This document shows positions 3,064-64,000 of a stretch of DNA of 64,000 bases, piece after piece; the first letter of the stretch is position 1; each line of letters starts with the position of its first letter. The translations under genes and the position numbers were made by a program. The stretch comes from Scleroderma bovista. Lineage: Eukaryota > Basidiomycota > Agaricomycetes > Boletales > Sclerodermataceae. The stretch spans positions 1 through 64,000 of the forward strand of contig JAYMGJ010000737.1 of assembly GCA_037178675.1 (NCBI GenBank). Direction: 5' to 3'. The notes beneath the pieces were generated by a model. That model did not search any database, had not been told where the DNA came from, and saw only the letters and a list, made by a program, of their open reading frames with translations.

Positions 3064-3919
3064 GTTGTCTAAGTCACCGAACAAAGTCTATTGACAGTGT
3101 AGAAAACAAAGTAAAAAGAAAAAGAAAACTAATTACAATTTTAAGTCCAGTCCGACTACTCAGACTCGCCTTCTCCGTCTTCGTCCCCCAACTCTTCGCC
3201 TTCCCCGTCTGTCTCGTCTGACTCTTGCTGCTCCTCGCTCTCCTCGGGCATTGCCATGCCCTTGCCCTTCGGGTCCTTAGCGTCGGCCACCCTCTTCGTC
3301 TCCCATGCAACCCCTTCCACCTTTCGACCGAGCTTTGCCAGCTCTCTGGTGTTGAGGTCAATCGCCGCAACGATTTCCCCGAGTCGGCGGTCTAGGACCA
3401 GCGCGATGTCACGCACCAAACGTGTTTGGTACTGTGGACATGGAGAAAGTTAGCCGATGAAACTAATGCGAAGAACACACACCCAAGATCTGTTGAAAGA
3501 TTGTCCCAACTTGAGGGATACAGACAGCCCTCGCTATCCATATCACGCAAAGTCAAGACTATCCTTATGCGAAGAATGAATACAAGCTCGTTGTAGCCAT
3601 CTATCGCACAAGAATGACTATCCTGATGCGAGAGATGAATGCCAACATGGACAGTCATCTATCGCACAAGAACCGCCAAGAAGCAGAAGAATCCAAGGAT
3701 TGATGATCATTTCAGTATGAGAGAGGAATGCAACCTACTGCAGTCCAACTCCCATACCAGAACAACCAAAGAAGCAGAAGAAACGATAGAGAAACAAAGG
3801 AGAAAAGGAAGAATCATTTTTAGTGCCCAAATGTCAAATTTAGGCGCCCAGTGCCGGCATTCCGATATTTTGAATAGCTCCGCCATTTTTGAAGCTATCA
3901 ATCATGTGACTATACCATC

Positions 3920-4417
3920 ATGGAGCCTAGACCGTGGTCTATCTGCCTGTCAAGTTCTGACGTAAATCTGTTCATTTCCCACGGAGATATTCCACCCGCA
4001 ATCCAGACACCCACTTCATCACTCACTATGGAGTCCACATTTTCTCTGGAACGTTTCTCCGCTATTGCAGCAGACCTCAACTATGTCCTGCTCTTGGAAC
4101 AGCCTCTCCCTGAGCTCCTGTGTACTGTCTGGTACATATCTTCCCAGCCTGCTCCCTCAGTCCCTCTCGTTCTCGGTCAGCGCGTTCTCCTCGTCAGTCC
4201 TGCGTCGCGCACATACTTTGGTCGTCTCAAGTCTATCATTAGACTTGAAAATTCATACCTGGTCGTCTCTGTGTCTCCTGAGTCCTCTGCATATGGTCCT
4301 TTCATCCCAGAGTCCTGTCACATCCATCTCCCTCTATCATTCATCTCGCTTCCCTGGACACGTCGAATCTGCTACTTGCGATTCTCTTCCCTGCTATCCC
4401 GCAACAAACACGAATGA
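3920..4417 (+). CDS. Open frame inside LTR-A, conserved in LTR-B, unknown product
   Basis: A 165-codon open frame in the 5' half of the LTR (core MES.FSLE.FSAIAADL.YV, then a hydrophobic region with QPAPSVPLVLGQRVLLVSPAS). The same frame is open, without indels across about 340 nt, in LTR-A at 39941-40438 and in LTR-B at 9423-9824, 22616-23008, 32048-32536, 57728-58087 and, on the minus strand, 57128-56694. I recognise no domain, signal peptide or clear membrane segment. It could be a real LTR-encoded protein or a chance frame preserved because copies are young. Confidence 0.35.
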   Translation: MEPRPWSICLSSSDVNLFISHGDIPPAIQTPTSSLTMESTFSLERFSAIAADLNYVLLLEQPLPELLCTVWYISSQPAPSVPLVLGQRVLLVSPASRTYFGRLKSIIRLENSYLVVSVSPESSAYGPFIPESCHIHLPLSFISLPWTRRICYLRFSSLLSRNKHE

Positions 4418-5100
4418 AACAGTGCTCTAGAACCCTTCTTAGGAGCCCTAATAGAGTACAGAACCTTCCCCTTACTGCTCAAGGGAAGACTGCACTTTGG
4501 GAGCACCAAATTTCGCGTTTTTGCTCTACAGAAGCTCAATCCAAGGGATTTGTGACACTCTGTGACCAGCTGTGACTCTACTTGTCATTCCAGGCCCCCT
4601 GACACTGCTCTTCTGGTCGGATCAATTCTTTTATTATCCCCCAGCCACTCCCATCAGTGGCACTGCTTCAGAAGCTCATCTCCAGATCTAAAGTTCAATA
4701 AATCATAGGTTGTGCTTCCCTTCTTTCTGAGTCACACAGAGTCACTCTGGCTCACTCTGACTCACTCTGCTGCGCATTATTCATCCCCTCTTGGCATTAC
4801 TAATCCCCATTACTCCCCTTACCAATCACTTACCAATCATCCTTCAAATCATGCTTATCATGCTGCTTATCAATTCATGACTCATGCCCCTATGATTCAT
4901 ATGTATTATGTCATCGCATATGCTCATTTAGCTTCGATCTACTCATCCCCTGCTTTCCCCCCCTCTCTTTTGGGCCCCATGCAATGATTTTTCCATATTC
5001 TTGGTTATACACCCCTTTTTACCTATGTTTTTGCTCTTTCCCTTGGCTCAGCAGCTTGTTCAGGCTCTCCCCATCGATGACTCAGCCTGATTACACTGCT

Positions 5101-5150
5101 TATCAATCGCTTACCAATTTCTTACCAATCTCTTACCAAGCACTTAGTCA
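5101..5150 (+). promoter_or_regulatory. CTTACCAAT repeat array upstream of the LTR-A TATA box
   Basis: Successive 10-11-bp units built on CTTACCAAT lie about 35-80 bases upstream of the TATA box; further units occur at about 4815-4850. LTR-B carries similar GCTTACT and CTTACCAAT units before its own TATTTAAA. Position and periodicity suggest transcription-factor sites, but no factor is identified. Confidence 0.4.
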
Positions 5151-5179
5151 TTTGTGCTTACAGGGCCACAGCCCCTCCT

Positions 5180-5187
5180 GTATATAA
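5180..5187 (+). promoter_or_regulatory. LTR-A core promoter (TATATAAA); AATAAA at 5230-5235
   Basis: GTATATAAACC followed about 45 bases later by TCAATAAAGCG gives the usual U3/R arrangement of TATA box and polyadenylation signal. The same pair recurs in the copies at 41200 and 47960 and marks the direction of transcription as plus. Confidence 0.6.
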
Positions 5188-6632
5188 ACCAGCAGCCAAA
5201 GGCTGCAAGGAAGTGTCTGCTTCCCCCTCAATAAAGCGACCACATTCACTCTCCCTCACTGTCTATAAGCTCCTTCTTTGTCTTTGGACTTGTAGGTCAC
5301 TCAGTGCTGGCCTAAAGCTCCTATATTACTGTTTATCAGATATATCTTGTATCTGATCATTTCTCTAGGCTCAAGCGCAGTCTAGCATCACTGTCCACTC
5401 CATCCCATCACTGTCCATCGCATTCTTTAAGCAGGAACTGTCCCCTTGCTTCCCTGTTGCTCCATCACTGCTGTTACACCCCTGTCATCAATCTATCATC
5501 GCTTTTCTATCCCAGGACTCTTCCTAACCACTGTGGTAGGCTGAAGAGGAGTCAATACCATCCCCAGTCGCATCTATTCCCCATCAGAAGCCCTTCCCTT
5601 CCCTCCTGCATCCTGCCTGAAGGCGTGCAGCACATCCCTCTGAGGAGATTAAATACCAGAAACGCAAAGGAAGACCACCACTCGCATATTGCTGTCATTT
5701 GGTGTTGGTTGTTGGTTGTTCTGACCTCTTCCCTCACTTAGGCGCACAGCGACTGGGTCTGGTCGACTCGATGGCCCAGCCACCGAGAATCCTCCCATTG
5801 CCGCCTCAATCTCCTCCGTACTCGCAGCCTTGGCGATCGTTTTCTTCTTCCGCTTCCTCTTCTCGCCTCCTCTCAGCGACGTTTCCACCTCCACCGCCTT
5901 CTCGCTCTGTTTTCTCTTCTCTCCGCTCGCCGACCGTTCCAACACCGACGTCGACACGTTGAAGGTACACTTTACCTTAGATCATTGACACCGACCGCAC
6001 GTCGGAGTGCGCGCACTGTCGGCCAGATCACACTCGGCACTGTGGCCGCTTCGCCTGCATCGGTCACAAGGGGGCCTGAACCTCATGATGCCCGTGTTGG
6101 AATGGGCAGTTGCCTGGTGGGGCTAATCAAATAATAAATCAACAAAAAGTCAATAAAGAATTAATAACGACGCACCTTGGGCTTCGGCCCCAGACCCAAA
6201 CGTTCCCTCATTGCTTCGCCAGCCACCAGTGACTCAGCCTTCTCTCTCGCCCTCACCTCTGCCTCGGCCTTGCGCCTCGCCTCGAAATCCGCTCGCGCCT
6301 TAGCCTCGGCGACTCACTTCGCCTCCTCTTCGGCTTTCCGCTTCTCTTCGGCGACCCTTCTCGCCTCTTCCTCAGCCTTCTTCCTGGCAGCCTCCTCCGC
6401 CAACCTCCTCGCCTGTTGCTCGGCCGCCTGTTTCATCAGTCACTCCTGTCGCCGACACGACTGTTCGTCGAACTTGGCGATTTGGACTTGGATTGAATCG
6501 GTCGGCTTCCCTTCCAACTTGGGTGAGGGGGCACACGTCCAGTCGACGTTGTTGGTGTTGCTAGCGGACATGTTCAAATCAAGGATGTTATGAAGAAGAG
6601 AATTTGTTGGGTTACCGTCACCGAAGGCCAGT

Positions 6633-6736: not shown

Positions 6737-7362
6737 TGTCATGACCGTGACATCTGATCACCCTGTACCCTATTGTCCGATCGCATCCACGTGTTTGCCG
6801 CCCGTTTTATTGTATGTACTCCCTTTTCCGTTTCTCTCTATCTGTCCTGTATCGCCACCAATCAGTGAGCGCGTTGTCCGATCTGTCTCTCTGTACTATT
6901 ACCTAATATGTTTCCTTTCTCGTTTCCGGTTACTATACGTTCCCGTCCCGTTGCATTACTAATACGATACTCATCAGTAATCCAGTTATCGCACTTACCG
7001 TACTTACTCAGCACACAGCACAACTGCGCTCGTCATTCGTCGGTAATCCCGACTTCCCGTACATCGCCTCATCTGTTCCACTCAGTATAAATACCTAGAT
7101 ACTCGGTCTGTTGTAGTTTCAGTTCGAATATCGAATAAGATACTTCTCATCTGTTCTCTCTTCGTGCTCTCTGCCTCTATCCTCGTACAAGCACTCGGTC
7201 ATAGACTGTTTACCCTCGGACTCTCTGTCAGACCCTCGGTCGGCCTTCCTATTACTCGGGAAGCGCGACTACGCTACATAGCATCTCGGTCTTACGGCTA
7301 GACCAACCTCTGACCCCCAGATCCCCCGTAGAGATCAGATCGGTGAAGAACCGGTCTTGACA
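6737..7362 (+). repeat. Gypsy-1 3' LTR (626 bp)
   Basis: Starts TGTCATGACC and ends GGTCTTGACA, with matching short inverted ends. A TATA box (TATAAAT) is at 7085-7091. The right flank moves directly into RPB1-like pseudogene sequence. The 5' LTR and target duplication cannot be checked in this window. Confidence 0.82.
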
Positions 7363-8900: not shown

Positions 8901-10986
8901 TGTCACACATCAAACAGGTTTGGTACAGTGAACATGGAAGATAATGCCTATATTGAATGATCCTTATGTGAAGGATAAGCATGACAGACCCTCATCGTAG
9001 CCATCTATCGCACAAGGAGACTATCCTGATGTGAGAGATGAATGCCAATGCTGACAGTCATCTATCGCACGAGAACTGCCAAGAAGCAGAAGAAACTGAA
9101 GGAATGTCATCAATTGTGGTATGAGAAAAAAATGCACACATCTGCAGTCCAACTCCCATACCAGAACAATCAAAGAAGCCAAAGAATTGATGGAGAAACA
9201 AAGGAGAAAGAGAAGAAATGATTTTTAGCACCCAAATGTCATTTTTAGGCACCCAGTGCCGGCATTCTGATATTTTGAATAGCTCCATCGTTTCTGAAGC
9301 TATCAGGCACATGACTATACATCAGAAAGCCTAGAACGTGGTCTATCTGCCTGTCAAGTTCCAACGCAAATCTGTTCATTTCACACGGAGATATTCCCCC
9401 TGCAATCCAGACATTCGCTTCATTGCTCACTATGGAGTCCATATCTTCTCTGGATCATTTCTCTGCTATTGCTGCAGATCTCCACTATGTCCTGCTCTTA
9501 GGACAGCCTCTCCCAGAGTTCCCATGCACTGCCTGGCACATATCTTCCCAGCCTGCTCCTTCAGTCCCTCTCGTTCGCGGTCAGTGTGTTCTCCTCGTCA
9601 GTCCTGCATCAAGGACATACTTTGGTCATCTTAGGTCTATTGTCAAGCTTGAGAAGTCTTCTCTGGTCGTCTCTGTGTCCCTTGAGCCCTCAGCCTATGG
9701 TCCCTTCCTCCAAGATACTTGCTATGTCCATCTTCCTCTGTTGTTTGTCTTGCTTCCCTGGATGCGTCAAATTCAATACTCTATCCACTTCCCTACTTTC
9801 AGACGACGTCCCCCAGCACCATGACAGTTATGCCCCCACTTTATAGTGCTATTAGGAAGAAGAACCCTCTCTCATTCTTTCCCAGAAGAGAGCTCGTCAA
9901 GGGAGCCCTTGGTTGCGCTTCAGCAGTGCTAGAACACATGCACTATAACTTAGTGTATGCTGACCCCCCAAAAGACCTCCGGACCCCTGGTACCCTTCTT
10001 GTGGCTGTTTTGTCTCGGATCAATCCCCCTGTTTATCTCAGATCTTCCCCATTGTTGTCCCATCAAATTCTTGATGGTACACAGCCCCCCATCAAACTTC
10101 TTAGGCTGTGCATCAATGACTCCTTCTGCTGTGCAGTGACTCATCCCTTGCTTACTGATGCTCTCTTGTCATCAGTATTACTCTATCCCTTTCGCATTTT
10201 TGGTATATTACTCAGCTGATGACTCACTCCCTTACCAATCACTCTTGTCATGCAGCTTACTCATTCCTTTACTCAGCAGCTTATTCATGCTCCCTATGCT
10301 TACTCATTCCTGCTTATCCCTTGCTTACTGATCACTTACAAACCCCTTACAAAGCTCTTACCAATTCTTGACAAATTCTGCTTACTCCCTTCTCTTTTTG
10401 TACTTTAATGCTGTGCCCCCCATGTATTTAAACCCCTGGGCTCAGCCGAGTGAGGAGAGACCTAATTGCACAAAATTATCCCTCTCTCAGACTCTCTCAA
10501 TCAGTATCCCTTCAGTCCTTGAGTCCTTGTAGGCTTCAGTGAAGGTCTAAAGGCTCAATATTGTCAAGTTTATCCAAGTTATTCAAGATCTATTCTTTTT
10601 ACTAGGCTCAAGCGGAGTCTAGGCTTCATACTAGTCTATCTTCCTTGCCTCTGGACATCAGAGGCATCTCTGGCCCTTTGCTGCACCAACCTCTAGGTGT
10701 AGTATTGCTACTTCAGTCTCTGTCAGTCCAATCCCCACTTTGACACTTCCTAGGCTTTGGGAAGAGTCCAGACCCCTATCCCCTTTGTCATCTATTGCTC
10801 CTGTACCCCAGGAGTATCCTGCATCATTGTCTGCATCACCCTGTTGGTGTAGATCCCCTTCCCCCCTTCTCAGCACATCCTCTCTGGACACTGCAGAGGT
10901 AAACCACCACTCACACATATTTGTAGTCCTTTGTTGGTGTTGTGTTTGGGTTATTACTCCGACCCAAATCCACACTTTGACTCACA
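8901..10986 (+). mobile_element. Solo LTR, family B (copy B1, complete, 2,086 bp)
   Basis: Begins TGTCACACATCAAACAGG and ends TTTGACTCACA. The left target is CCGC (8897-8900) and the right CTGC (10987-10990), one CpG-to-TpG change apart. Removing the LTR and one target copy joins the RPB1 reading frame as ...DNPLSREAQ..., which confirms both boundaries. Identical in family to the LTRs of Gypsy-B. Confidence 0.88.
9423..9824 (+). CDS. Open frame inside LTR-B (homologue of the LTR-A frame)
   Basis: A 133-codon frame homologous over about 115 residues to the frame at 3920-4417 and ending in FRRRPPAP. A second frame, 166 codons at 9719-10219 (repeated at 22903-23403 and, minus strand, 14387-13887), overlaps its end in another phase but has no counterpart in LTR-A. 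Function unknown. Confidence 0.3.
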   Translation: MLTMESISSLDHFSAIAADLHYVLLLGQPLPEFPCTAWHISSQPAPSVPLVRGQCVLLVSPASRTYFGHLRSIVKLEKSSLVVSVSLEPSAYGPFLQDTCYVHLPLLFVLLPWMRQIQYSIHFPTFRRRPPAP

Positions 10987-13107: not shown

Positions 13108-14801
13108 TGTGAGTCAAAGTGTGGATTTGGGTTGGAGTAATAACCAAAACACAACACCAACAAAGGACTACAAATATGTGTGAGTGGTGGTTTACCTCCG
13201 CGGTGTCCAGAGAGGATGTGCTGAGGAGGGGGGAAGGGGATCTACACCAACAGGGTGGTGCAGACGATGATTCAGGATACTCCTGGGGTACAGGAGCAAT
13301 AGATGACAAAGGGGATAGGGGTCTAGACTCTTCCTAAAGCCTAGGAAGTGTCAAAGCGGGGATTGGGTTGACTGGGACTGAAACAGCAATACTACACCTA
13401 GAGGTTGGTGCAGCAAAGGGGCAAGGGGGCTCCTGACGTCCAGAAGCAATGGGATATGAAGGATAGACAGGCTAGACTCCGCTTGAGCCTAGAGAAATAC
13501 TTGGACTTGAATAGATTGAATAAAACTTGAATATCAGAGTCTTTAGACCTTCACTGAAGCCTACAAGACTCAAAGAGCTGAGGGGATACTGACTGAGAGA
13601 GTCTGAGAGAGGGATAATTTCGTGCAATTGGGTCTCTTTTTCACTGGGCTGAGCCCAGGGGTTTAAATACATGGGGGGGCACAGCATTAAAGTACAAAAA
13701 GAGAAGGGAGTAAGCAGAATTTGTCAAGGATTGGTAAGGGATTGGTAAGAGCTTTGTAAGGGGTTTGTAAGTGATCAGTAAGCAAGGGATAAGCAGGAAT
13801 GAGTAAGCATAGGGAGCATGAATAAGCTGCTGAGTAAAGGAATGAGTAAGCTGCATGACAAGAGTGATTGGTAAGGGAGTGAGTCATCAGCTGAGTAATA
13901 TACCAAAAATGCGAAAGGGATAGAGTAATACTGATGACAAGAGAGCATCAGTAAGCAAGGGATGAGTCACTGCACAGCAGAAGGAGTCATTGATGCACAG
14001 CCTAAGAAGTTTGATGGGGGGCTGTGTACCATCAAGAATTTGATGGGACAACAATGGGGAAGATCTGAGATACATAGGGGGATTGATCTGAGACAAAACA
14101 GCCACAAGAAGGGTACCAGGGGTCCAGAGGTCTTTTGGGGGGTCAGCATACACTAAGGTATAGTGCATGTGTTCTAGTGCCACTGAAGCGCAACCATGGG
14201 CTCCCTTGATGAGCTCTCTTCTGGGAAAGGACGAGAAAGGGTTCTTCTTCCTAATGGCACTATAAAGTGGGGGAATAACTGTCATGGTGCTGGGGGATGT
14301 CGTCTGAAAGTAGGGAAGTGGATAGAGTATTGAATTTGATGCATCCAGGGAAGCGAGACAAACAACAGAGGAAGATGGACATGGCAAGTATCTGGGAGGA
14401 AGGGACCATAGGCTGAGGGCTCAGGGGACACAGAGACAACCAGAGAAGACTTCTCAAGCTTGCCAATAGACCTAAGATGACCAAAGTACATCCTTGACAC
14501 AGGACTGACAAGGAGAACACGCTGACAGAGAACGAGAGGGACTGAGGGAGCAGGCTGGGAAGATATGTGTCAGGCAGTGCACAGGAACTCTGGGAGAGGC
14601 TGTCCTAAGAGCAGGACATAGTGGAGATCTGCAGCAATAGCAGAGAAATGATCCAGAGAAAATATGGACTCCATAGTGAGTGATGAAGCAAATGTCTGGA
14701 TTGCAGGGGGAATATCTCCGTGGGAAATGAACAGATTTGTGTCAGAACTTGACAGGCAGATAGACCACATTCTAGGCTCTCTGATGGTATAGTCACGTGC
14801 C
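13108..14801 (-). mobile_element. LTR-B copy B2, 5' truncated
   Basis: Reverse-oriented LTR-B whose 3' end (TGTGAGTC on the plus strand) follows the flank CTGG at 13104-13107. It matches the consensus to 14801 (AGTCACGTGC) and then stops; about 400 bases of the LTR start are lost at the junction with LTR-C1. Confidence 0.82.
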
Positions 14802-22095: not shown

Positions 22096-24181
22096 TGTCA
22101 CACAACAAACAGGTTTGGTACAGTGAACATGGAAGATAATTCCTATATTGAATGATCCTTATGTGAAGGATAAGCATGATGGACCATTCATCGTAGCCAT
22201 CTATCGCACAAGAAGACTATCCTGATGCAAGAGATGAATGCCAATGCAGACAGTCATCCATCGCATGAGAACTGCCAAGAAGCAGAAGAAACTGAAGGAA
22301 TGATGTCAATTGTGGTATGAGAAAGGAATGCACACATCTGCAGTCCAACTCCCATACCAGAATGATCAAAGAAGCCAAAGAATTGGGAGAAAAAGAAGAA
22401 ATGATTTTTAGCACCCAAATGTCATTTTTAGGCACCCAGTGCCGGCATTCCGATATTTTGAATAGCTCCATTGTTTCTGAAGCTATCAGGCACGTGACTA
22501 TACCGTCAGAGAGCCAAGAGCATGATCTATCTGCCTGTCAAGTTCCAACGCAAATCCATTCATTTCCCACAGAGATATTCCCCCTGCAATCCAGACATTC
22601 GCTTCATCACTCACTATGGAGTCCATATTTTCTCTGGATCATTTCTCTGCTATTGCTGCAGATCTCAACTATGTCCTGCTCTTAGGACAGCCTCTCCCAG
22701 AGTTCCCATGCACTGCCTGGCACATATCTTCCCAGCCTGCTCCCTCAGTCCCTCTCGTTCTCTGTCAGCGCATTCTCCTTGTCAGTCCTGTGTCAAGGAT
22801 GTACTTTGGTCATCTTAGGTCTATTGGCAAGCTTGAGAAGTCTTCTCTGGTCGTCTCTGTGTCCCCTGAGCCCTCAGCCTATGGTCCCTTCCTCCCAGAT
22901 ACTTGCCATGTCCATCTTCCTCTGTTGTTTGTCTCGCTTCCCTGGATGCATCAAATTCAGTACTCTATCCACTTCCCTACTTTCAGACGACGTCCCCCAG
23001 CACCATGACAGTAATGCCCCCACTTTATAGTGCTATTAGAAAGAAGAACCCTCTCTCGTTCTTTCCCAGAAGAGAGCTCATCAAGGGAGTCCATGGTTGT
23101 GCTTCAGCAGTGCTAGAACACATGCACTATACCTTAGTGTATGCTGACCCCCCAAAAGACCTCTGGACCCCTGGTACCCTTCTTGTGGCTGTTTTGTCTC
23201 AGATCAATCCCCCTATGTATCTCAGATCTTCCCCATTGTTGTCCCATCAAATTCTTGATGGTACACAGCCCCCCATCAAACTTCTTAGGCTGTGCATCAA
23301 TGACTCCTTCTGCTGTACAGTGATTCATCCCTTGCTTACTGATGCTCTCTTGTCATCAGTATTACTCTATCCCTTTCGCATTTTTGGTATATTACTCAGC
23401 TGATGACTTACTCCCTTACCAATCCATCTTGTCATGCAGCTTACTCATTCTTTTACTCAGCAGCTTATTCATGCTCCCTATGCTTACTCATTCCTGCTTA
23501 TCCCTTGCTTACTGATCACTTACAAACCCCTTACAAAGCTCTTACCAATCCCTTACCAATCCTTGACAAATTCTGCTTACTCCCTTCTCTTTTTGTACTT
23601 TAATGCTGTGCCCCCCCATGTATTTAAACCCCTGGGCTCAGCCCAGTGAAAAAAGACCCAATTGCACGAAATTATCCCTCTCTCAGACTCTCTCAGTCAG
23701 TATCCCCTCAGCTCTTTGAGTCTTGTAGGCTTCAGTGAAGGTCTAAAGACTCTGATATTCAAGTTTTATTCAATCTATTCAAGTCCAAGTATTTCTCTAG
23801 GCTCAAGCGGAGTCTAGCCTGTCTATCCTTCATATCCCATTGCTTCTGGACATCAGGAGCCCCCTTTCCCCTTTGCTGCACCAACCTCTAGGTGTAGTAT
23901 TGCTGTTTCAGTCCCAGTCAACCCAATCCCCGCTTTGACACTTCCTAGGCTTTAGGAAGAGTCTAGACCCCTATCCCCTTTGTCTTCTATTGCTCCTGTA
24001 CCCCAGGAGTATCCTGCATCATCATCTGCACCACCCTGTTGGTGTAGATCCCCTTCCCCCCTCCTCAGCACATCCTCTCTGGACACTGCAGAGGTAAACC
24101 ACCACTCACACATATTTGTAGTCCTTTGTTGGTGTTGTGTTTGGGTTATTACTCCGACCCAAATCCACACTTTGACTCACA
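22096..24181 (+). repeat. Gypsy-B 5' LTR
   Basis: Starts TGTCACACAACAAAC and ends TTTGACTCACA. A core promoter TATTTAAA is at about 23620 and the CTTAC-type repeat array precedes it (about 23400-23560). Confidence 0.87.
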
Positions 24182-24183
24182 TC

Positions 24184-24200
24184 TGGAGCCCACCGCAAGG
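24184..24200 (+). other. Gypsy-B primer-binding site
   Basis: Two bases after the LTR, TGGAGCCCACCGCAAGG begins with TGG, as expected for pairing with the CCA end of a tRNA. The tRNA species is not identified. Confidence 0.5.
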
Positions 24201-28159: not shown

Positions 28160-28308
28160 ACTACTATGCTTGCCCTCACATACACCTTTGCTTACTATGT
28201 CACATGTTTTTGATTCTTTTTGTACTACCAATGGTCTTTATACTCACTTTGACCGGAATGTCGTAAAACTACCGAACTCTTCCCAAGTGCCTTGGCGCTT
28301 ACAAACAT

Positions 28309-33340: not shown

Positions 33341-33350
33341 TCAAAGCTCT

Positions 33351-45385: not shown

Positions 45386-46428
45386 TGTGAGTCAAAGTGT
45401 GGATTTGGGTCAGAGTAATAACCCAAACACAACACCAACAAAGGACTACAAAAATGTGTGAGTGGTGGTTTACCTCCATGGTGTCCAGAGAGGATGTGCT
45501 GAGGAGGGGGGAAGGGGATCTACACCAACAGGGTGGTGCAGACGATGATGCAGGATACTCCTGGGGTACAGGAGCAATAGATGACAAAGGGGATAGGGGT
45601 CTAGACTCTTCCTAAAGCCTAGGAAGTGTCAAAGCAGGGATTGGGTTGACTGGGACTGAAACAGCAATACTACACCTAGAGGTTGGTGCAGCAAAGGGGC
45701 AAGGGGGCTCCTGACGTCCAGAAGCAATGGGATATGAAGGATAGACAGGCTAGACTCCACTTGAGCCTAGAGAAATACTTGGACTTGAATAGATTGAATA
45801 AAACTTGAATATCAGAGTCTTTAGACCTTCACTGAAGCCTACAAGACTCAAAGAGCTGAGGGGATACTGACTGGGAGAGTCTGAGAGAGGGATAATTTCG
45901 TGCAATTGGGTCTTTTTTCACTGGGCTGAGCCCAGGGGTTTAAATACATGGGGGGGCACAGCATTAAAGTACAAAAAGAGAAGGGAGTAAGCAGAATTTG
46001 TCAAGGATTGGTAAGGGATTGGTAAGAGCTTTGTAAGGGGTTTGTAAGCAATCAGTAAGCAAGGGATAAGCAGGAATGAGTAAGCTGTATGACAAGATGG
46101 ATTGGTAAGGGAGTGAGTCATCAGCTGAGTAATATACCAAAAATGCGAAAGGGATAGAGTAATACTGATGACAAGAGAGCATCAGTAAGCAAGGGATGAA
46201 TCACTGCACAGCAGAAGGAGTCATTGATGCACAGCCTAAGAAGTTTGATGGGGGGCTGTGTACCATCAAGAATTTGATGGGACAACAATGGGGAAGATCT
46301 GAGATACATAGGGGGATTGATCTGAGACAAAACAGCCACAAGAAGGGTACCAGGGGTCCAGAGGTCTTTTGGGGGGTCAGCATACACTAAGGTATAGTGC
46401 ATGTGTTCTAGCACCGCTGAAGCGCAAC
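45386..46428 (-). mobile_element. LTR-B copy B3, 5' half missing
   Basis: The reverse-oriented LTR-B 3' end (TGTGAGTC) follows TCGG at 45382-45385. Homology continues to GAAGCGCAAC and stops at the MITE. An internal 60-bp deletion near 46085 removes part of the CTTAC-type array. Confidence 0.83.
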
Positions 46429-46980: not shown

Positions 46981-48528
46981 TGCGTCACGCACATACTTTG
47001 GTCATCTCAAGTCTATCGTTAGACTTGAAAATTCATACCTGGTTGTCTCTGTGTCTCCTGAGTCCTCTGCATATGGTCCTTTCATTCCAGAGTCCTGTCA
47101 CATCCATCTCCCTCTATCATTCATGTCGCTTCCCTGGACCCATCGAATCTACTATTCATGTTTCACTTCCCTGCTATCCTGCAACAAACACAAATGAAAC
47201 AGTGCTCTAGAACCCTTCTTAGGAGCCCTAATAGAGTACAGAACCTTCCCCTTACTGCTCAAGGGAAGACTGCACTTTGGGAGCACCAAATTTCGCGTTT
47301 TTGCTCTACAGAAGCTCAATCCAAGGGATTTGTGACACTCTGTGACCAGCTGTGACTCTACTTGTCATTCCAGGCCCCCTGACACTGCTCTTCTGGTCGG
47401 ATCAATTCTTTTATTATCCCCCAGCCACTCCCATCAGTGGCACTGCTTCAGAAGCTCATCTCCAGATCTAAAGTTCAATAAATCATAGGTTGTGCTTCCC
47501 TTCTTTCTGAGTCACACAGAGTCACTCTGGCTCACTCTGACTCACTCTGCTGCGCATTATTCATCCCCTCTTGGCATTACTAATCCCCATTACTCCCCTT
47601 ACCAATCACTTACCAATCATCCTTCAAATCATGCTTATCATGCTGCTTATCAATTCATGACTCATGCCCCTATGATTCATATGCATTATGTCATCGCATA
47701 TGCTCATTTAGCTTCGATCTACTCATCCCCTGCTTTCCCCCCCTCTCTTTTGGGCCCCATGCAATGATTTTTCCATATTCTTGGTTATACACCCCTTTTT
47801 ACCTATGTTTTTGCTCTTTCCCTTGGCTCAGCAGCTTGTTCAGGCTCTCCCCATCGATGACTCAGCCTGATTACACTGCTTATCAATTGCTTACCAATTT
47901 CTTACCAATCTCTTACCAAGCACTTAGTCATTTGTGCTTACAGGGCCACAGCCCCTCCTGTATATAAACCAGCAGCCAAAGGCTGCAAGGAAGTGTCTGC
48001 TTCCCCCTCAATAAAGCGACCACATTCACTCTCCCTCACTGTCTATAAGCTCCTTCTTTGTCTTTGGACTTGTAGGTCACTCAGTGCTGGCCTAAAGCTC
48101 CTATATTGCTGTTTATCAGATATATCTTGTATCTGATCATTTCTCTAGGCTCAAGCGCAGTCTAGCATCACTGTCCACTCCATCCCATCACTGTCCATCG
48201 CATTCTTGAAGCAGGAACTGTCCCCTTGCTTCCCTGTTGCTCCATCACTGCTATTACCCCCCCATCATCAATCTATCATTGCTCTTCTATCCCAGGACTC
48301 TTCCTAACCACTGTGGTAGGCTGAAGAGGAGTCAATACCATCCCCAGTCGCATTCCTTCCCCATCAGAAGCCCTTCCCTTCCCTCCTGCATCCTGCCTGA
48401 AGGCGTGCAGCACATCCCCCTGAGGAGATTAAATACCAGAAATGCAAAGGAAGACCACCACTCGCATATTGCTGTCATTTGGTGTTGGTTGTTGGTTGTT
48501 CTGACCTCTTCCCTCACTTAGGCGCACA
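46981..48528 (+). mobile_element. LTR-A copy A3, 5' third missing
   Basis: Picks up LTR-A at GCGTCACGCACATACTTTGG directly after the MITE and runs to ...GGCGCACA at 48528, followed by CCGG. The 3' portion is almost identical to A1. Confidence 0.85.
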
Positions 48529-52086: not shown

Positions 52087-52546
52087 TGTGAATCAAAGTG
52101 TGGATTTGGGTCGGAGTAATAACCCAAACACAACACCAACAAAGGACTACAAAAATGTGCGAGTGGTGGTTTACCTCCACAGTGTCCAGAGAGGATATGC
52201 TGAGGAGGGGAAAAGGGGATCTACACCAACAGGGTGATGCAGACAGTGATGCAGGATACTCCTTGGGTACAGGAGTAATAGAAGACGAAGGGGATAGGGG
52301 TCTGGACTCTTCCTAAAGCCTAGGAAGTGTCAAAGCGGGGATTGGGGTGACTGGGACTGAAGTAGCAATACTACACCTAGAGGTTGGTGCAGCAAAGGGG
52401 CAAGGGGGCTCCTGACGTCCAGAAGCAATGGGATATGAAGGATAGACAGGCTAGACTCCACTTGAGCCTAGAGAAATACTTGGACTTGAATAGATTGAAT
52501 AAAACTTGGATATCAGAGTCTTTAGACCTTCACTGAAGCCTACAAG

Positions 52547-55500
52547 TAGTGAAGGACATGGGTCAACCCATGGGTGTCGCGGCATCAACCTGGACCCTCA
52601 CCCGCAACGGGTAAAATTTGATATTTACCCATGGGTATTGATTTCATGTAGGACGATTGCAGGACAATATAAGTTGCTATACAAATACATTGAAGAACTA
52701 TCAGACATCCTCAGCTGGCCCCTCTTCCTCTCCATCATCACAGACCACCTTCTTGATATCTTCATCCTTCATGAATCCCAGAAGGCTCCAGCTGCTGAGA
52801 CAAAGAAGAGTGCGGATTGACTGCGATGACAAGCGATTGCAGAGGTGAGGCAGAAGGATGCGGCCTTTACTGAAAAGACGTTCAACATCGACACTCGTAG
52901 CTATACAATAAATTAGAGGTCTTGTAGATGAACAATTATGAAGACATACCTGGGATCGTCAAATAATCAAGGGCCATACGTGAGAGATGCGGATAGGTCG
53001 CACGATTCTCATGCCACCATTTGAGGGCATCAGAAATGTCTTCCACACCCGAGGCGAGGTAGGCATCTAATTCATCATGCGCATGGTTTGCATTTGGCTT
53101 CGCAAGACTTGGGAGGCTGTCAAATACATTTTGGGAGTCCTGGCGCTGGCACTGTAAAATGTGAGACAATTACAAGGAAAGTACTTAATACTTACCTGAG
53201 ATTCATCCTCTGACTTGTCAGAGGTTGAGGGTTCAGTCCAAGAAACATTGCATGTAGCATATGAGACATGGAATGTGTCACGGACGAGTTGATGTGCCGT
53301 GTTGATCCATTTGGGCTCCCATTCTGCGATCTTGAAATATTCAAGCTTGTGGCATGGGTGTAAAACTTGCCAATAAAATGATGAGATGCAAAGATACAGA
53401 GACAGTGTTGCTTACCCATGGCAATGCGGTAAAGTTTAGAGGTATCAGTATGCAAGTAGTAGTTATTGAGAGTCTTCTTGGCCAAGCCAACCGCAGCACG
53501 GATTGCCGGATCCAAGGTGTTCCTCTGCAGCATTCCTGTGGTGAAAATTTCATCAATGAAATCCATTGCTGGGATTACCATAGCGAGGTTAGGTGTCGAA
53601 TGGGAAAAGAACAGTGTTGCATCCTTGAGGACCTGTGGCTGTTTGTTTGACCAACAAAACTATTATATAAGTGTCTATCCTCACCTTCAGCACATCACGC
53701 AGCTGTTGGAGTAGTTTCCACTCATGCTCATCAATGGCAAAGTCAGCCAGACCCAACCACCGCTTGTCCGTCACCGACTCGATGACTTGATCGTACAAGA
53801 TTCCGAAGTCTACCATATCAAATGCCGAATTCCAGTGGGCCGATACATCTTGAGGCATCCACTTCTGCTTCAAACCTTGATCAGTGCAAGTGGTGTCCCA
53901 CACAGGCAAGACAGCAGTGGTGGAATGAGTAATCTTGAAAGCCAACTTCCGTATCTAATGGGCTTGGAAGTCACCACACTCAAAACATTTCAAAAGGTAA
54001 GTCCCACCTTCATGAGCGCAATCCGCACTGGTCTCACTTGATCTTCCAGATTGGCACGTTCAGCATGAGTCAAGAGCGGGACTTCATCAACCCAGCACTC
54101 TGTATCGTCAAGCAGATCTTCGCCATTCTCAGCGATTGTCTGCCAATCTTCTACATCAAGTCCCTCAGTGCCGAGGGTTTTCAGTTCTTCGTCTCTCTCA
54201 ACCATGCCCTTTGGTACGTCAAATGCTTTCACCATTGTCTTCCCAACTAAATTTCCAACATGTAGGAAACACCGCACCTGCGCTGCCTGTCCAGCAAAAC
54301 TATTGACTTTGTTTTTCAGTTCGAGCGTCATTGTATCATTAGAACTAGCATTATCGCAAGTGACAGCAAGCATCTGGAACAAAATCAGGTGCGTCTCAGG
54401 CTTGAGTTTCATTTATTAGGTTACTTTATCTGATATTCCAAACTCATCCAGGATCTTCGTGAACTCTTCGGCCAATGTTTGGCCAGTGTGTGCCTATGAA
54501 CCCTTCAATTCTCTGACAAATAAGTGAGTGTATCTGTACCCTTGAAACTTCAACAATGTCGAGCGGCAGTGCTAACACTTCCCCTTGTTGTTCCAGGTGC
54601 ACGGTCACAGCCACGAAGGCCTTGTGGTTAGGCGCTGTCCACGTGTCTGTTGCAAAACTCAATTTTCCGTTGTATTTCTGGTAAGGTTGAGAGATTTATT
54701 TGTATGTTGTTATAAATTCTTACCTGTAGCATGCCAGCAATTCTTTCCTTTGTCCGCAAAAATACAAGCCTGACATCATGCGCTACAGTCTTCGAATGCG
54801 GTAAGTAGTATGCTGGTCGCCCAGTTTTCATCAGTGAATGAAAGCTACGGTCATTGACCATGTCAAATGGCCGCAGGTTTTCAGAGACCCAGCACACAAT
54901 CTCGGCACTTGAAGGGGTTCACATGAGCACATCAGATGCAAAATTTATCGCAACTCACCGGGTTTCTGCCTTTGTATGTGGCCGGGTAGAGTAAGTAACC
55001 TTCCCTTTCTTCTTCTGTGCGAATGCCATCATAACTATCCCATTTTCAGTGTAGTCCTTTGCTGCCTTTCGGGCAGTAGAAATATCTTTTGCCTCAGTAA
55101 TGGCATTGAAGGCATCCTCGCCCCAACAGTTTTTCACATGCTGGTGCAAATTCGATGTCGACTTGGCATCCCCATTGTCGAGAAACCGCCGAATCCTTCG
55201 CTTGCAATTGTTTCCAAGACATTTGAATTCGTGCGCTCGATGGCCATTAATGTACACAATCTCTGGAACCTGCAAAAAGAATGCATAGACAGGTGAGGTC
55301 CATTCCTCCATCAGTGACTCTGTTATACTGATCAGTACTAATTTGTCACAAAACATATATCTTACCCAGTTCCCCCTCTGAGTTTTGGGGTTCGTCAATG
55401 TCGCTCTCCATCTTTTCACCTGTCATGTCAATTACCCTGTTGTGCATGTCTGCTCCTTCATCTGGCAGAATGTCGCTGTTGGGGGAGGTGTCCCTGTTGG

Positions 55501-55974
55501 GTAAGATATTGTTTGTGTCTGGCCTACTTCATTTAGACACCGTTGTGTCTGTTGCATCAATGGTATGTTTCCGTTTCAACTGGCCATGAGTTAGTTCCAT
55601 GGCTAACATCTTTTCGGTAGGACACCGAGCTCGTTTACTGCTCATTGTGAGGTTGAGGGTCGGGGCACTCAATGTTGTGTCAGACATACACCTGAGGTGG
55701 CCTTTTTTTCATTCTTTTGCAATGCTGTGTACTCCATTCTATGGTTCCATGTGATCCATTTGTACCATATGTCTATTTATGACAAAATACATTCCAGCCT
55801 GTCAGGTTTGACAGGTGCTGGGAACCTTGCACAGCTATTGCACTGCTATCATGTGTGCGGGTGTGCGAGGGTCTCTGGTGGGTCTGTGGGTTCTGAGATT
55901 TCAACCCGGACCCGGACCCTTAAGCACCCTTACCCACAACCCATCATGGGTAGCCAAACCCTTGTCCTTCACAA
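52547..55974. mobile_element. hAT DNA transposon (3,428 bp) with TIRs and 8-bp duplication
   Basis: Left end TAGTGAAGGACATGGGT and right end, read in reverse, TTGTGAAGGACAAGGGT differ at two of 17 positions. A perfect 8-bp duplication CCTACAAG (52539-52546, 55975-55982) matches hAT practice, and removing the element rejoins LTR-B4 exactly. It carries one transposase gene on the minus strand. Confidence 0.92.
52701..55687 (-). pseudogene. hAT transposase, almost complete, one in-frame stop
   Basis: About ten exons with GT...AG introns of about 40-60 bp. ATG at 55687; exon 1 has a TGA at 55531-55529 where KRSRP would be expected (CGA to TGA). BED-type finger (FKCLGNNC...HQHVKNC, about 55240-55130); then VCWVSENLRPFDMVND, FATDTWTAPNHKAFVAVT, LAVTCDNASSNDTM, VRCFLHVGNLV and AHWNSAFDMVD. 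C-terminal dimerisation region: ALKWWHENRATYPHLSRMA, then after a last intron TSVDVERLFSKGRILL and NRLSSQSIR, stop at 52703-52701. The exon 1-2 join is one base out of frame with a simple GT-AG splice, so the first exon model may be wrong or hold an indel. A downstream ATG could bypass the stop. Confidence 0.85.
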
Positions 55975-57216
55975 CCTACAAGACTCAAAGAGCTGAGGGG
56001 ATACTGACTGAGAGAGTCTGAGAGGGAGATAATTTCGTGCTATTGGGTCTTTTTTTCACTGGGCTGAGCCCAGGGGTTTAAATACATGGGGGGGCACAGC
56101 ATTAAAGTACAAAAAGAGAAGGGAGTAAGCAGAAATTGTCAAGGATTGGTAAGGAATTGGCAAGAGCTTTGTAAGGGGTTTGTAAGCGATCAGTAAGCAA
56201 GGGATAAGCAGGAATGAGTAAGCATAGGAAGCATGAATAAGCTGCTGAGTAAAGGAATGAGTAAGCAAAAATGTGAAAGGGATAGAGTAATACTGATGAC
56301 AAGAGAGCATCAGTAAGCAAGGGATGAGTCACTGCACAGCAGAAGGAGTCATTGATGCACAGCCTAAGAAGTTTGATGGGGGCCTGTGTACCATCAAGAA
56401 TTTGATGGGACAACAATGGGGAAGATCTGAGATAAATAGGGGGATTGATCCGAGACAAAACAGCCACAAGAAGGGTACCAGGGGTCCAGAGGTCTTTTGG
56501 GGGGTCAGCATACACTAAGGTATAGTGCATGTGTTCTAGCACCACTGAAGCGCAACCATGGGCTCCCTTGATGAGCTTTCTTCTGGGAAAGAACGAGGGT
56601 TCTTCTTCCTAATAGCACTATAAAGTTGGGGCATAACTGTCATGGTGCTGGGGGACATCGTCTGAAAGTAGGGAAGTGGATAGAGTACTGAATTCAACGC
56701 ATCCAGGGAAGCGAGACAAACGACAGAGGAAGATGGACATGGCAAGCATCTGGGAGGAAGGGACCATAGGCTGAGGGCTCAGGGGACACAGAGACGACCA
56801 GAGAAGACTTCTCAAGCTTGACAATAGACCTAAGATGACCAAAGTACATCCTTGATGCAGGACTGACAAGGAGAATGCGCTGACTGAGAACGAGAGGGAC
56901 TGAAGGAGCAGGCTGGGAAGATATGTGCCAGGCAGTGCACGGGAACTCTGGAAGAGGCTGTCCTAAGAGCAGGACATAGTGGAGATCTGCAGCAATAGTG
57001 GAGAAATGATCCAGAGAAAATACAGACTCCATAGTGAGCGATGAAGTGAATGTCTGGATTGCAGGGGGAATATCTCCATGGGAAATGAACAGATTTGCAT
57101 CGGAACTTGACAGGCAGATAGACCACATTCTAGGCTCTCTGATGGTATAGTCACATGCCTGATAGCTTCAGAAATGATGGAGCTATTCAAAATATTGCAA
57201 TGCCAGCACTGGGCGC

Positions 57217-59265
57217 TGTCATGCACCAAACAGGTTTGGTACAGTGAACATGGAAGATAACACCTATATTGAATGATCCTTATGTGAAGGATAAGCACAA
57301 TGGACCCTCATCGTAGCCATCTATCGCACAAGAAGACTATCCTGATGCGAGAGATGAATGCCAATGCAGACAGTCATCTATCGCACGAGAACTGCCAAGA
57401 AGCAGAAGAAACTGAAGGAATAACGTCAATTGTGGTATGAGAAAGGAATGCACACGTCTGCAGTCCAGCTCCCATACCAGAACAATCAAAGAAGCCAAAG
57501 AATTGATGGAGAAACGAAGGAGAAAGAGAAGAAATGATTTTTAGCACCCAAATGTCATTTTTAGGCACCCAGTGCCGGCATTCCGATATTTTGAATAGCT
57601 CCATCATTTCTGAAGCTATCAGGCACATGACTATACCATCAGAGAGCCTAGAACATGGTCTATCTGCCTGTCAAGTTCCGAAGCAAATCTGTTCATTTCC
57701 CACGGAGATATTCCCCCTGCAATCCAGATGTTTGCTTCATCACTCACTATGGAGTCCGTATTTTCTCTGGATCATTTCTCCACTATTGCTGCAGATCTCC
57801 ACTATGTCCTGCTCTTAGGACAGCCTCTCCCAGAGTTCCTGTGCACTGCCTGGCACATATCTTCCCAGCCTGCTCCCTCAGTCCCTCTCGTTCTCGGTCA
57901 GCGTGTTCTCCTCGTCAGTCCTGCATCAAGGATGTACTTTGGTCATCTTAGGTCTATTGTCAAGCTTGAGAAGTCTTCTCTGGTCATCTCTGTGTCCCCT
58001 GAGCCCTCAGCCTATGGTCCCTTCCTCCCAGATACTTGCCATGTCCATCTTCCTCTGTCGTTTGTCTCGCTTCCCTGGATGCGTTGAATTCAGTACTCTA
58101 TCCACTTCCCTACTTTCAGACGATGTCCCCCAGCACCATGACAGTTATGCCCCAACTTTATAGTGCTATTAGGAAGAAGAACCCTCTCTCGTTCTTTCCC
58201 AGAAGAAAGCTCGTCAAGGGAGCCCATGGTTGCGCTTCAGTGGTGCTAGAACACATGCACTATACCTTAGTGTATGGTGACCCCCCAAAAGACCTCTGGA
58301 CCCCTGGTACCCTTCTTGTGGCTGTTTTGTCTCGGATCAATCCCCCTATTTATCTCAGATCTTCCCCATTGTTGTCCCATCAAATTCTTGATGGTACACA
58401 GGCCCCCATCAAACTTCTTAGGCTGTGCATCAATGACTCCTTCTGCTGTGCAGTGACTCATCCCTTGCTTACTGATGCTCTCTTGTCATCAGTATTACTC
58501 TATCCCTTTCACATTTTTGCTTACTCATTCCTTTACTCAGCAGCTTATTCATGCTTCCTATGCTTACTCATTCCTGCTTATCCCTTGCTTACTGATCGCT
58601 TACAAACCCCTTACAAAGCTCTTGCCAATTCCTTACCAATCCTTGACAATTTCTGCTTACTCCCTTCTCTTTTTGTACTTTAATGCTGTGCCCCCCTATG
58701 TATTTAAACCCCTGGGCTCAGCCCAGTGAAAAAAAAACCCCCAATTGCATGAAATTATCCCTCTCTCAGACTCTCTCAATCAGTATCCCTTCAGTCTTTG
58801 AGTCCTTGTAGGCTTCAGTGAAGGTCTAAAGGCTCAATATTGTCAAGTTTATCCAAGTTATTCAAGATCTATTCTTTATACTAGGCTCAAGCAGAGTCTA
58901 GGCTTCATACCAGTCAATCTTCCCCGCCTCTGGACATCAGAGGCATCTCTGCCCCTTTGCTGCACCAATCTCTAGGTGTAGTATCGCTGTTTCAGTCTCA
59001 GTCAACCCAATCCCTGCTTTGACACTTCCTAGGCTTTAGGAAGAGTCCAGACCCCTATCCCCTTCATCATCTATTGCTCCTGTACCCCAGGAGTATCCTG
59101 CATCATCGTCTGCATCACCCTGTTGGTGTAGATCCTCTTCCCCCCTCCTCAGCACATCCTCTCTGGACACCGCGGAGGTAAACCACCACTCGCACATTTT
59201 TGTAGTCCTTTGTTGGTGTTGTGTTTGGGTTATTACTCCGACCCAAATCCTCACTTTGACTCACA
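57217..59265 (+). mobile_element. Solo LTR-B copy B5, complete, nested in B4
   Basis: TGTCATGCACCAAACAGG to TTTGACTCACA with a perfect 4-bp duplication GCGC (57213-57216, 59266-59269). It sits inside the oppositely oriented B4, so the two form a large imperfect inverted repeat able to base-pair over more than 1 kb. Confidence 0.9.
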
Positions 59266-59620
59266 GCGCCTAAAAATGACATTTGGGCGCTAAAAATCAT
59301 TTCTTCTCTTTCTCCTTCATTTCTCCATCAATTCTTCAGCTTCTTTGATCGTTCTGGTATGGGAGTTGGACTGCAGACGTGTGCATTCCTTTCTCATACC
59401 ACAATTGACGTTATTCCTTCAGTTTCTTCTGCTTCTTGGTGGTTCTTGTGCGATAGATGACTGTCTGCATTGGCATTCATCTCTCACATCAGGATAGTCT
59501 TCTTGTGCGATAGATGGCTAGTATGATGAGGGTCCATCATGCTTATCCTTCGCATAAGGATCATTCAATATAGGTGTTATCTTCCATGTTCACTGTACCA
59601 AACCTGTTTGGTGCGTGACA

Positions 59621-61029: not shown

Positions 61030-61660
61030 AGCTAATGGCCTGGCCAGTCTGACTTATCTGACTGGTCTTACTGGTCCAATTAGTGTTATTGGTCTAGCTA
61101 GTCTTACTAGTCTAATTGGTCTAACTGGTCTGAGTCTCTGAATTGTCTGGTCACTCTGGCCAGTCTTACTGATGTGACTTGTCTGGGTGGCCTGACTGGT
61201 CTTGTTGGTCTGGATTGTCTTAAATGTCTGACCAACTTACTGTCTGACAGGTCTGACAGTCTGGGTGATCTGATTAGGCTGGGTGGTCTGGATGGTCTGG
61301 ATTGTCTTGACTGACTGACTGACTTACAGTCTGGGTGGTCTGGATGGTCTGGATGGTCTTCACTGGCTGACTGACTTATGATCTGGGTGGTCTGACAGGT
61401 CTGACAGGTCTGGATGGTCTTAACTGTCTGACCAGTCTGGATTGTCTTAACTCTCTGACTGACTTACTGTCTGGGTGGTCTGACTGGTCTGGAATGGTCT
61501 GGACTGTCTGACTGGCTGGCTGGTCTGGCTGGTCTGACTGGTCTGACTGGTCTGGTGGTCTGGCCATCTGGTTTCAGACACCCTGGTCTGATGGTCTGGA
61601 ATGGCTTGACTGACTTATCTGACTTATCCATCTTAACTGTCTGATTCCAGACAATCCAGA
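61030..61660 (-). repeat. CTGACTGGT-type minisatellite, reverse orientation of the 50316 array
   Basis: Imperfect units such as GGTCTGACTGGTCTG are the reverse complement of the CAGACCAGTCAGAC units at 50316-51190. The array ends about 130 bases before the Helitron remnant. Confidence 0.8.
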
Positions 61661-61789
61661 TACTGTAAGAGGGTTAAGACCAATTGTCACCTTGCTGATG
61701 CAGTCATCTTCATCCATCATATCTCTGTCTCCATTATGTCCTTTTCTTTCCTCAAGGAAAGGAAGGCTGGCATCTGAACATCCCTTTAC

Positions 61790-63426
61790 ATGATGTGAAT
61801 GATCGTCCACACCGTTCCAAAAAGGTTACTCAGCTACTATGGCATGCTTATCGTCTACATGTTCATCCACCAGAAATAGAGCCTCCAAATCTTTTTATGG
61901 GTGGGAGGCTGCTGCAACAATTTGTCTGTGATGCATGGGCTTCCATTGATCAATCCAGACTTACCTGGGCTGCCAACAATCAAAAAAGAGTTAGGGCAGA
62001 ACTCTATTCTGGATTGCAGGACTGTCTAGCTCAAGATGGGCAGGCAAATGTTGGCCATGTCATTCTTCCCTCCACTCACAAGGGTAGTGTGCATCACATG
62101 CAACAACTGCTTCAGGATTTTTTGGCCATCTGTCAAGAGTATAGAAAGCCTGACCTGTTTATCACTATGACTGCAAATGCAAACTGGCCTGAAATTACTC
62201 AAAATCTATTGCCTGGTATGTTGATTATCCAATTTTTTCTCTTCTTCCATTTAGTTTTACTAATTCATGTTTTATCTCATAGGTCAGACTGCACAGGATC
62301 GACCTGACTTGGTTGCACATGTCTTTCATGCCAAAAAAGAGGCACTGATAAAGAAGATCCGTGATGGCTACTTTGGGAGATTGGCTGGCAAAGTGTACAC
62401 CATTGAGTATCAAAAGTGTGGTCTTCCACACATCCACATGCTTATCTTTCTGGAGGAGGGTGATAAGATCCACTTTGTTGAGCAGATCAATGCTATCATC
62501 TCTGCTCAATTACCTGATCCTCAGATTCATCCCCAGCTTCATGCTGCTGTTTCCAAGTATATGCTTCATGGTTCTTGCACTCCTGAGCGCTGCATGGAGA
62601 ACAATCTATGCAAGAAACATTTTCCAAAGTCATTCACTGAGCAGACTATTATTAAGGAAGATGGTCATCCAGACTATGCTCGCCCTGAAAATAATTGCAC
62701 TGTAGAAAAGAATGGGGTTGTCTTTGATAATAGATATGTTGACCCTCATCCTCAACAATTACTGGTGGAGTTTGACTGTCACATCAATCTGGAGATGTGT
62801 GCTTCTGTCAAGGCAGTCAAGTACATTCACAAGTACATCTACAAAGGACCTGATCGTGCCACCATACAGACAGATGGACCTCAGGATGAGATCCGTTCTT
62901 ACCTTGATGCCAGATACATTTCCTCTACTCAAGCATGTCATAATATCTTTGAATTTCCCATGCACATGGAATATCCTGCTGTCTATCATCTTCCTGTTCA
63001 TCTGCCTGGCCAGAACACTGTGGTTTTTCATCCTGAAGATGATATTGAGGATGTTGTCAACAATGTTAAGGATAGCCCTCTTCTTGGATGATTTAAGGCC
63101 AATGCAGATCCTGAATTGGTGGCAGCAGGAGTTCATAACCATCTGTATCAAGATTTTCCAAAGAGGTTTGTTTGGAATAGGTCCAGAGGAAAATGGAAGG
63201 TCTGTCAGCGCTATCAGGCCATTGGTAGAATGTACTTTATTCCTGTCACTGCTGGTGAATGCTTCTACTTGCATGTCTTGCTAACCACCATACAAGGTAT
63301 GTCTTACTATATTAACTTTAAATTGAGAGTAGGTTGAACATGTTCACTTGCATAGGTGCCATTTCCTATGAGGATCTTCGTTCCTTTGAGGGTCAATTGT
63401 ATAATACATTCAAGGAGGCTTGCCGT
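61790..63426 (+). pseudogene. Helitron Rep (HUH endonuclease) region, truncated
   Basis: Helitron N-terminal-like domain: QQFVCDAWASIDQSRLTW, then FLAICQEYRKPDLFITMTAN. An intron (GTATGTTGATT...CTCATAG, 62216-62282) leads to GQTAQDRPDLVAHVFHAK. Rep motifs: CGLPHIHMLIFL with the H-x-H metal site (about 62420-62455) and the tyrosine motif AVKYIHKYIYKG (about 62812-62847). An in-frame TGA at 63089 breaks it, then EFPKRFVW-like sequence continues (FPKRFVWNRS), a second intron near 63297, and loss of everything after FKEACR where LTR-A4 begins. The helicase domain lies beyond the LTR or is lost. Confidence 0.87.
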
Positions 63427-64000
63427 TGTCATGCACCAAATGTGTTTGGTACTGTGGACATGGAGAAAGTTAGCCGATGAAATTAATGCAAAGAACACAC
63501 CCAAGATCTGTTGAAAGATTGTCCTGACTTGAGGGATACAGACAGCCCTCACTATCCATATCACGCAAAGTCAAGACTATCCTTATGCGAAGAATGAATA
63601 CAAGCTCGTTGTAGCCATCTATCGCACAAGAATGACTATCCTGATGCGAGAGATGAATGCCAATGCTGACAGTCATCTATCGCATGAGAACCACCAAGAA
63701 GCAGAAGAATCCAAGGATTGATGATCATTTCAGTATGAGAGAGGAATGCAACCTACTGCAGTCCAACTCCCATACCAGAACAACCAAAGAAGCAGAAGAA
63801 ACGATAGAGAAATGAAGGAAAAAAGGAAGAATCATTTTTAGCACCCAAATGTCAAATTTAGGCACCCAGTGCCAGCATTCCGATATTTTGAATAGCTCCA
63901 CCGTTTTTGAAGCTATCAATCATGTGACTATACCATCATGGAGCCTAGAACATGGTCTATCTGCCTGTCAAGTTTCAACATAAATCTGTTTATTTCCCAC
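63427..64000 (+). mobile_element. LTR-A copy A4, continues beyond window
   Basis: Begins TGTCATGCACCAAATGTG after the target CCGT (63423-63426) and follows LTR-A to the window edge. Whether it is solo or the 5' LTR of a full element cannot be seen. Confidence 0.85.

Follow-up and report, generated by a model that had tools for sequence, protein, structure and literature searches.

Retroviral integrases have been described as showing weak palindromic preferences at their target sites (PMC4422553). The 4-bp duplications made by prototype foamy virus (PFV), Moloney murine leukaemia virus (MoMLV), porcine endogenous retrovirus (PERV) and xenotropic murine leukaemia virus-related virus (XMRV) have a flexible pyrimidine-purine centre, while T and A are disfavoured at both outer positions (PMC4422553). 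ZAM, a Drosophila element of the gypsy superfamily, has a CG-containing target which is bound in vitro by its integrase itself (PMC2527525), and Ginger1, which has a gypsy-type integrase with H2C2, DDE and GPY/F, makes 4-bp duplications centred on CG (PMC2836005). Here we analyze a stretch of 64,000 nucleotides from Scleroderma bovista (assembly GCA_037178675.1, contig JAYMGJ010000737.1, positions 1 to 64,000, forward strand), called the window below, and a Ty3/gypsy-type retrotransposon represented in it by two kinds of long terminal repeat (LTR), LTR-A and LTR-B. Throughout the genome the insertions of this element lie at 4-bp targets whose centre is, with few exceptions, CG or one of its decay products TG and CA.

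The likeness of Ginger1 to the LTR-A/LTR-B element extends to the ends, since its TGTNR resembles the LTR start TGTCA. However, Ginger1 is a DNA transposon; it has terminal inverted repeats but no reverse transcriptase (RT), whereas LTRs and RT are present here, and its sites are near-fixed (CCGG in 75%, CCGT/ACGG in 24%; PMC2836005), whereas 14 different NCGN words were found here. ZAM is placed under Gypsy and made a 4-bp duplication in three of three insertions (PMC3276498), but its target is a six-base consensus, CGCGCg, whereas the outer bases vary at LTR-A/B targets; the ZAM site alone is insufficient for cleavage in vitro, a second nearby binding site being needed (PMC2527525). Other Drosophila families of the gypsy superfamily likewise make mostly 4-bp duplications at palindromic motifs, and AT-rich palindromes are the usual tendency among targets of LTR families in Drosophila (PMC3276498). 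With PFV, MoMLV, PERV and XMRV the central preference is a tendency (average 63%, above a random 22%), in contrast to the near-absolute CG found here (PMC4422553). CpG-centred targets were not found in the available part of PMC10045372.

A sequence-only reading of the window had proposed the NCGN rule and had known of no gypsy family described with it. This holds for the bare form, near-absolute over hundreds of natural insertions, which was not found in the literature searched (mostly papers outside subscription), but not for a CpG-centred target in general, for which Ginger1 and ZAM are precedents. The CpG-centred target of a gypsy-type integrase therefore has parallels, and no published match to its bare NCGN form was found in that literature. 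The family provides hundreds of natural insertions with a near-absolute two-base code inside an otherwise loose site. It becomes testable by which residues of the integrase the stagger's centre is read, whether 5-methylcytosine alters the reading, and how a transposon survives on a target erased by methylation.

Target sites are centred on CpG

A pattern of 25 places from the LTR start, searched with zero mismatches, gave 812 matches in the genome (a longer pattern of 35 places, with one mismatch tolerated, gave 985). TGGA, the internal junction of the 3'LTR, precedes 26 of the 812 starts, which leaves 786 outer left ends; the internal status of all 26 was judged from the window and four fetched copies. 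The centre of the target was CG at 548 of the 786 ends, as the CpG-centred rule demands, and TG or CA at 230. Thus 778 of 786 ends (778 of 812 without the TGGA exclusion) agree with the claim that every centre is CG, TG or CA, which failed at eight ends, three with TA and five with other dinucleotides. The comparison with local background that had been suggested as a check was also carried out. CG was found at 117 of 151 sequence-unique left ends (TG 19, CA 15; together 151/151) and at 68 of 91 sequence-unique right ends (CA 15, TG 7, CC 1; CG/TG/CA 90/91), against 3.5% for CG and 21.1% for CG+TG+CA among 1210 dinucleotides outside the duplication. At the steps flanking the centre CG was at 0%, and at the remaining steps within 10 bases it ranged from 0.7 to 6%. 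The flank listing requires A, C or G at −10 and covers 100 of 605 places, 85 of them unique.

The outer bases are looser. Among CG-centred ends (n=185) there were 14 different NCGN words, led by GCGG (29), CCGG (28), CCGC (25) and GCGC (15). The base 5' of the target CG was C in 40%, G in 33%, A in 16% and T in 10%, compared with 24, 24, 23 and 30% for CGs in the fetched sequence; TCGA is the commonest NCGN in the fetched sequence (8.4%), yet it occurred at 0 of 185 target ends. Retroviruses that make 4-bp duplications avoid T and A at these same outer positions (PMC4422553).

LTR-A and LTR-B form two subfamilies of a single retrotransposon, present in hundreds of copies that are mainly LTRs without the remaining element. 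The TGGA junction of a 3'LTR stands at only 26 of 812 starts, so that the majority of copies would seem to be either solo LTRs or 5' LTRs.

LTR ends in the window and the 4-bp duplication

All 14 four-base flanks named in the sequence-only reading are present at their positions. A scan of the window gave 16 LTR ends; the two additional ones, TCTG after 24181 and TGGA before 31612, mark the borders of the internal part of one long element, on the primer-site side and on the polypurine-tract side, and are not insertion sites, so that their omission had been correct. The copies are as follows.

3407..5748, plus strand: LTR-A1, complete, 2342 bp; duplication GCGA at 3403-3406 and 5749-5752
8901..10986, plus strand: LTR-B1, inside an RPB1 gene fragment; duplication CCGC at 8897-8900 and CTGC at 10987-10990 (CG to TG)
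13108..14801, minus strand: LTR-B copy with right end at 13108, without left part; flank CTGG at 13104-13107
22096..24181, plus strand: 5'LTR (type B) of the long element; flank CCAG at 22092-22095
24182..31611, plus strand: internal part of the long element; start TCTGGAGCCC (primer side, by position), end CCTGTGGA
31612..33342, plus strand: 3'LTR (type B) of the same long element, right side shortened
39532..41769, plus strand: LTR-A copy without left end; flank CTGG at 41770-41773
45386..46428, minus strand: LTR-B copy, partial; flank TCGG at 45382-45385
46981..48528, plus strand: LTR-A copy, partial; flank CCGG at 48529-48532
52087..59620, minus strand: LTR-B4, interrupted (52087-52546, 55966-57213, 59268-59620); flanks TTGC at 52083-52086 and TCGC at 59621-59624
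57217..59265, plus strand: LTR-B5, complete, 2049 bp, nested in B4; duplication GCGC at 57213-57216 and 59266-59269
63427..64000, plus strand: LTR-A copy crossing the window end; flank CCGT at 63423-63426

For the duplication, both flanks were compared in 98 LTRs (38 of 40 subfamily A matches, 40 of 44 subfamily B matches and 20 places of the flank list); four of the 20 places had no right end, giving 94 unique pairs, and removal of five internal junctions left 89. Both outer bases agreed in 59 of the 89 pairs, while 2000 shuffles gave a mean of 8.6 and a maximum of 20, and a 5-bp duplication fitted none of the 59. The 4-bp duplication, and with it the 4-bp stagger that had been proposed, is therefore real. 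Two empty sites described in the sequence-only reading could be rebuilt. When LTR-B1 and one 4-base copy were removed, a continuous RPB1 match ran across the junction (PDB 5x4z, E 1.1e-21), whereas the frame was broken when both 4-base copies stayed; size and place of one empty site are thereby fixed. Removal of LTR-A1 with one 4-base copy joined its flanks as one open antisense frame.

CG is the original target and decays to TG or CA

The 59 pairs with matching outer bases were CG/CG 38, CG/CA 9, CG/TG 7, CA/TG 4, TG/TG 1 and CA/CA 0. A model in which every target was CG and each copy decayed with 11% to TG and 11% to CA predicts, in the same order, 35.9, 10.1, 10.1, 1.4, 0.7 and 0.7. When native TG/CA targets were allowed for in the fit, their share came out as 0 (95% upper limit 5%). 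Since the pair classes fit a single CG ancestor, they show that CG was the original target and that TG and CA arose after insertion in either copy. The earlier view of TG and CA as decay products of CpG is supported; in 16 of 59 pairs CG stands opposite TG or CA. Provided that the two copies both began as CG, to which the pairs point, the present state measures CpG decay locus by locus.

CG/CG was kept in 27 of 32 matching pairs of subfamily A and in 11 of 27 of subfamily B (p = 0.0009). The window copy of subfamily A shares 97-98% identity with each of the other 39 matches scored; for subfamily B, complete matches are 89-95% identical to B5 of the window. TG/CA targets were found at 12 of 25 LTRs whose own first CpG, in CACG, reads CATG, versus 12 of 59 (p = 0.017). 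Three pairs of places among the matches listed (two on contig C59, one between C3 and C27) have nine of ten flank bases equal, and their sole difference is CG versus TG/CA.

In the mushroom Marasmius oreades repeats are CpG-methylated in about 0.75 of reads (PMC9674265). From this and from the direction of decay we infer that the targets decayed by deamination of methylated CpG.

On contigs C1, C8, C12, C36, C59 and C3/C27 the same LTR flanks turn up again in segments that are mirrored or repeated, which suggests that these segments are large duplications or haplotype copies.

Another LTR family lacks the CpG rule

One other LTR family of the same genome was used for comparison, represented in the window by the following copy.

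6737..7362, plus strand: LTR of a different family (TGTCATGACC...CTTGACA) used as control, without CpG targeting

Its pattern gave 173 matches with up to one mismatch; from 64 of these, 26 polypurine-tract junctions were removed and 35 unique flanks obtained. At the same positions as for LTR-A/B, CG was present in 2 of 35 and CG/TG/CA in 9 of 35, and at any step CG reached at most 4 of 35. Because this family gives CG at 2/35, the CpG rule is a property of the element and not of the genome. AGGGGGATAC was observed upstream of many copies of the control family. Two further LTR families were counted, TGTTGAAGTCGC (copia-like by eye) with 523 matches and TGTCAAGACC with 68.

Classification and integrase

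The element has the LTRs of Ty3/gypsy (Metaviridae), with TGTCA...CACA ends and a 4-bp duplication. Its coding order is also that of Ty3/gypsy, namely protease, RT, RNase H and integrase: the frames of the internal part (24182..31611), which are interrupted by stops, match aspartyl protease, DUF4100, RT, RNase H and the integrase zinc domain. The rve domain lies downstream in all six relatives scanned, two of them below Pfam's cut-off. In the literature searched no paper joining DUF4100 with a retrotransposon was found. One relative, P0003, is 70% identical over the window frame and matches the Ty3 polyprotein at 2e-43; one from Trametes cubensis, among the 120 relatives listed, is 58% identical. 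One scan of viral contigs with P0003 gave zero loci.

A GPY/F-type integrase C-terminus was scored in the relatives, and its strict motif was found in 48 of the 120 listed and was absent from the other 72. The chromodomain (PF00385), by which a chromovirus would be recognized, was absent from the six relatives scanned and from the precomputed domains of the 120 listed, the scan covering relatives and not the C-terminus of the window copy. The acidic triad of P0003 is D850, D908 and E943. Between D908 and E943 stand 34 residues, one short of the 35 of a DD35E triad. Among solved structures the best match of the P0003 integrase is PFV integrase (1.5e-13). In this alignment a serine stands opposite Ala188 of PFV, where 73 of 118 relatives have proline and 27 of 118 serine; Ala188 corresponds to Ser119 of human immunodeficiency virus.

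How the central CpG may be read

From the target sequences it is very probable that the Ty3/gypsy-type integrase of the LTR-A/LTR-B element requires CpG at the centre of its 4-bp stagger. The integrase would join the two complementary DNA ends to opposite strands at points separated by 4 bp, and would accept a target essentially only when CpG is the middle step, with a weaker preference for C or G outside the CG and with T disfavoured on the 5' side. In the strand-transfer complex the integrase itself may read CG, two subunits compressing and reading the central step. A base contact would have to add to bending, because CG is a flexible pyrimidine-purine step, but TA, TG and CA are also flexible and are hardly or not used. 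When two arginines in the integrase C-terminal domain of murine leukaemia virus (MLV) are changed, the central step shifts towards TA (PMC4477651); by analogy the C-terminal domain is a candidate reader of CG.

Several points weigh against a required CpG. The evidence is drawn from one genome, and duplicated segments are among the 812 matches. The 185 target ends are pooled, so that some insertions contribute both ends. The control family was scored at the LTR-A/B positions, whatever the length of its own duplication. Three of the 786 ends have TA and five have other centres. Finally, 30 of the 89 complete LTRs have unlike flanks; 29 of these 30 pairs still have CG/TG/CA at both centres, and recombination between copies or insertions, or assembly joins at repeats, is for this reason a likely origin. 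The LTRs with unlike flanks include L005, L010, L018, L026, L036, L153, L157 and L166.

Methylation could enter the reading. That the integrase is a CpG reader which also senses methylation is unlikely, and that it specifically favours methylated CpG, a further claim compatible with a required CpG, is judged slightly less likely again. The window is depleted of CpG (observed/expected 0.37), and target CGs decay to TG/CA as is expected of methylated CpG. However, a quarter of the insertion ends lie in flanks with an observed/expected ratio of at least 0.78, and the decay is seen after insertion, so that methylation which spreads outward from the element may lie behind it. If the integrase did sense methylation, the element would use the substrate of host methylation as a landing code; each insertion would turn one CpG into two, a pair that decays as a built-in clock, and the supply of targets would fall with the host's own deamination.

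It seems improbable that the integrase is directed by a tether, be it CpG-rich chromatin or a host factor which binds CpG or methyl-CpG. In favour of this, tethered integration is known from Ty1, Ty3 and MLV. The CpG methylation of repeats in M. oreades also speaks for it (PMC9674265). But a tether biases regions and not the exact centre of a stagger, and the other steps within 10 bases have CG at 0 to 6%; the control family in the same genome is without the rule. In the 300-bp flanks of 90 insertion ends the CpG observed/expected ratio spans 0.10 to 1.32 (median 0.48). This suggests that neither CpG-poor nor CpG-rich surroundings are needed. No difference in the CpG content of these flanks was seen when CG targets were compared with TG/CA targets (p = 0.22). 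The sequence-only reading had left the choice between integrase and tether open; the preference for a CpG centre stands, while a tether alone does not agree with a CG locked to the stagger centre nor with the control family.

Bending alone, by which any flexible pyrimidine-purine centre would suffice and TG/CA would be native targets, is a shade more improbable than a tether. Pyrimidine-purine steps do occupy 781 of 812 centres genome-wide, and PFV and MLV-like viruses tend the same way (PMC4422553). Nevertheless TA was found at 3 of 786 ends although it makes up 3.8 to 4.9% of neighbouring dinucleotides, and TG+CA is five to six times as frequent as CG nearby, yet the targets are CG at 548 and TG or CA at 230. 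TG/TG or CA/CA occurred in one of 59 pairs, versus TG opposite CA in four, of which the simplest source is a CG ancestor.

That the LTR ends are mis-drawn and CG is part of the element itself is next to impossible, for although an invariant CG beside every end would give the same picture, the outer letters covary on the two sides (59/89 pairs) and the RPB1 frame requires exactly one of the two 4-base copies, which rules it out for that insertion.

Other features of the window

Immediately to the right of an LTR-A end, at 48544-49833, there is a frame for an integrase with a chromodomain, which belongs to a different element, probably the insertion target of the adjoining LTR-A copy. PF17667, a family of fungal protein kinases, is matched by the frame at 17554-18300 and, slightly below the cut-off, by that at 19241-20227, and an open frame at 62267-63088 matches a Helitron-like N-terminal domain.

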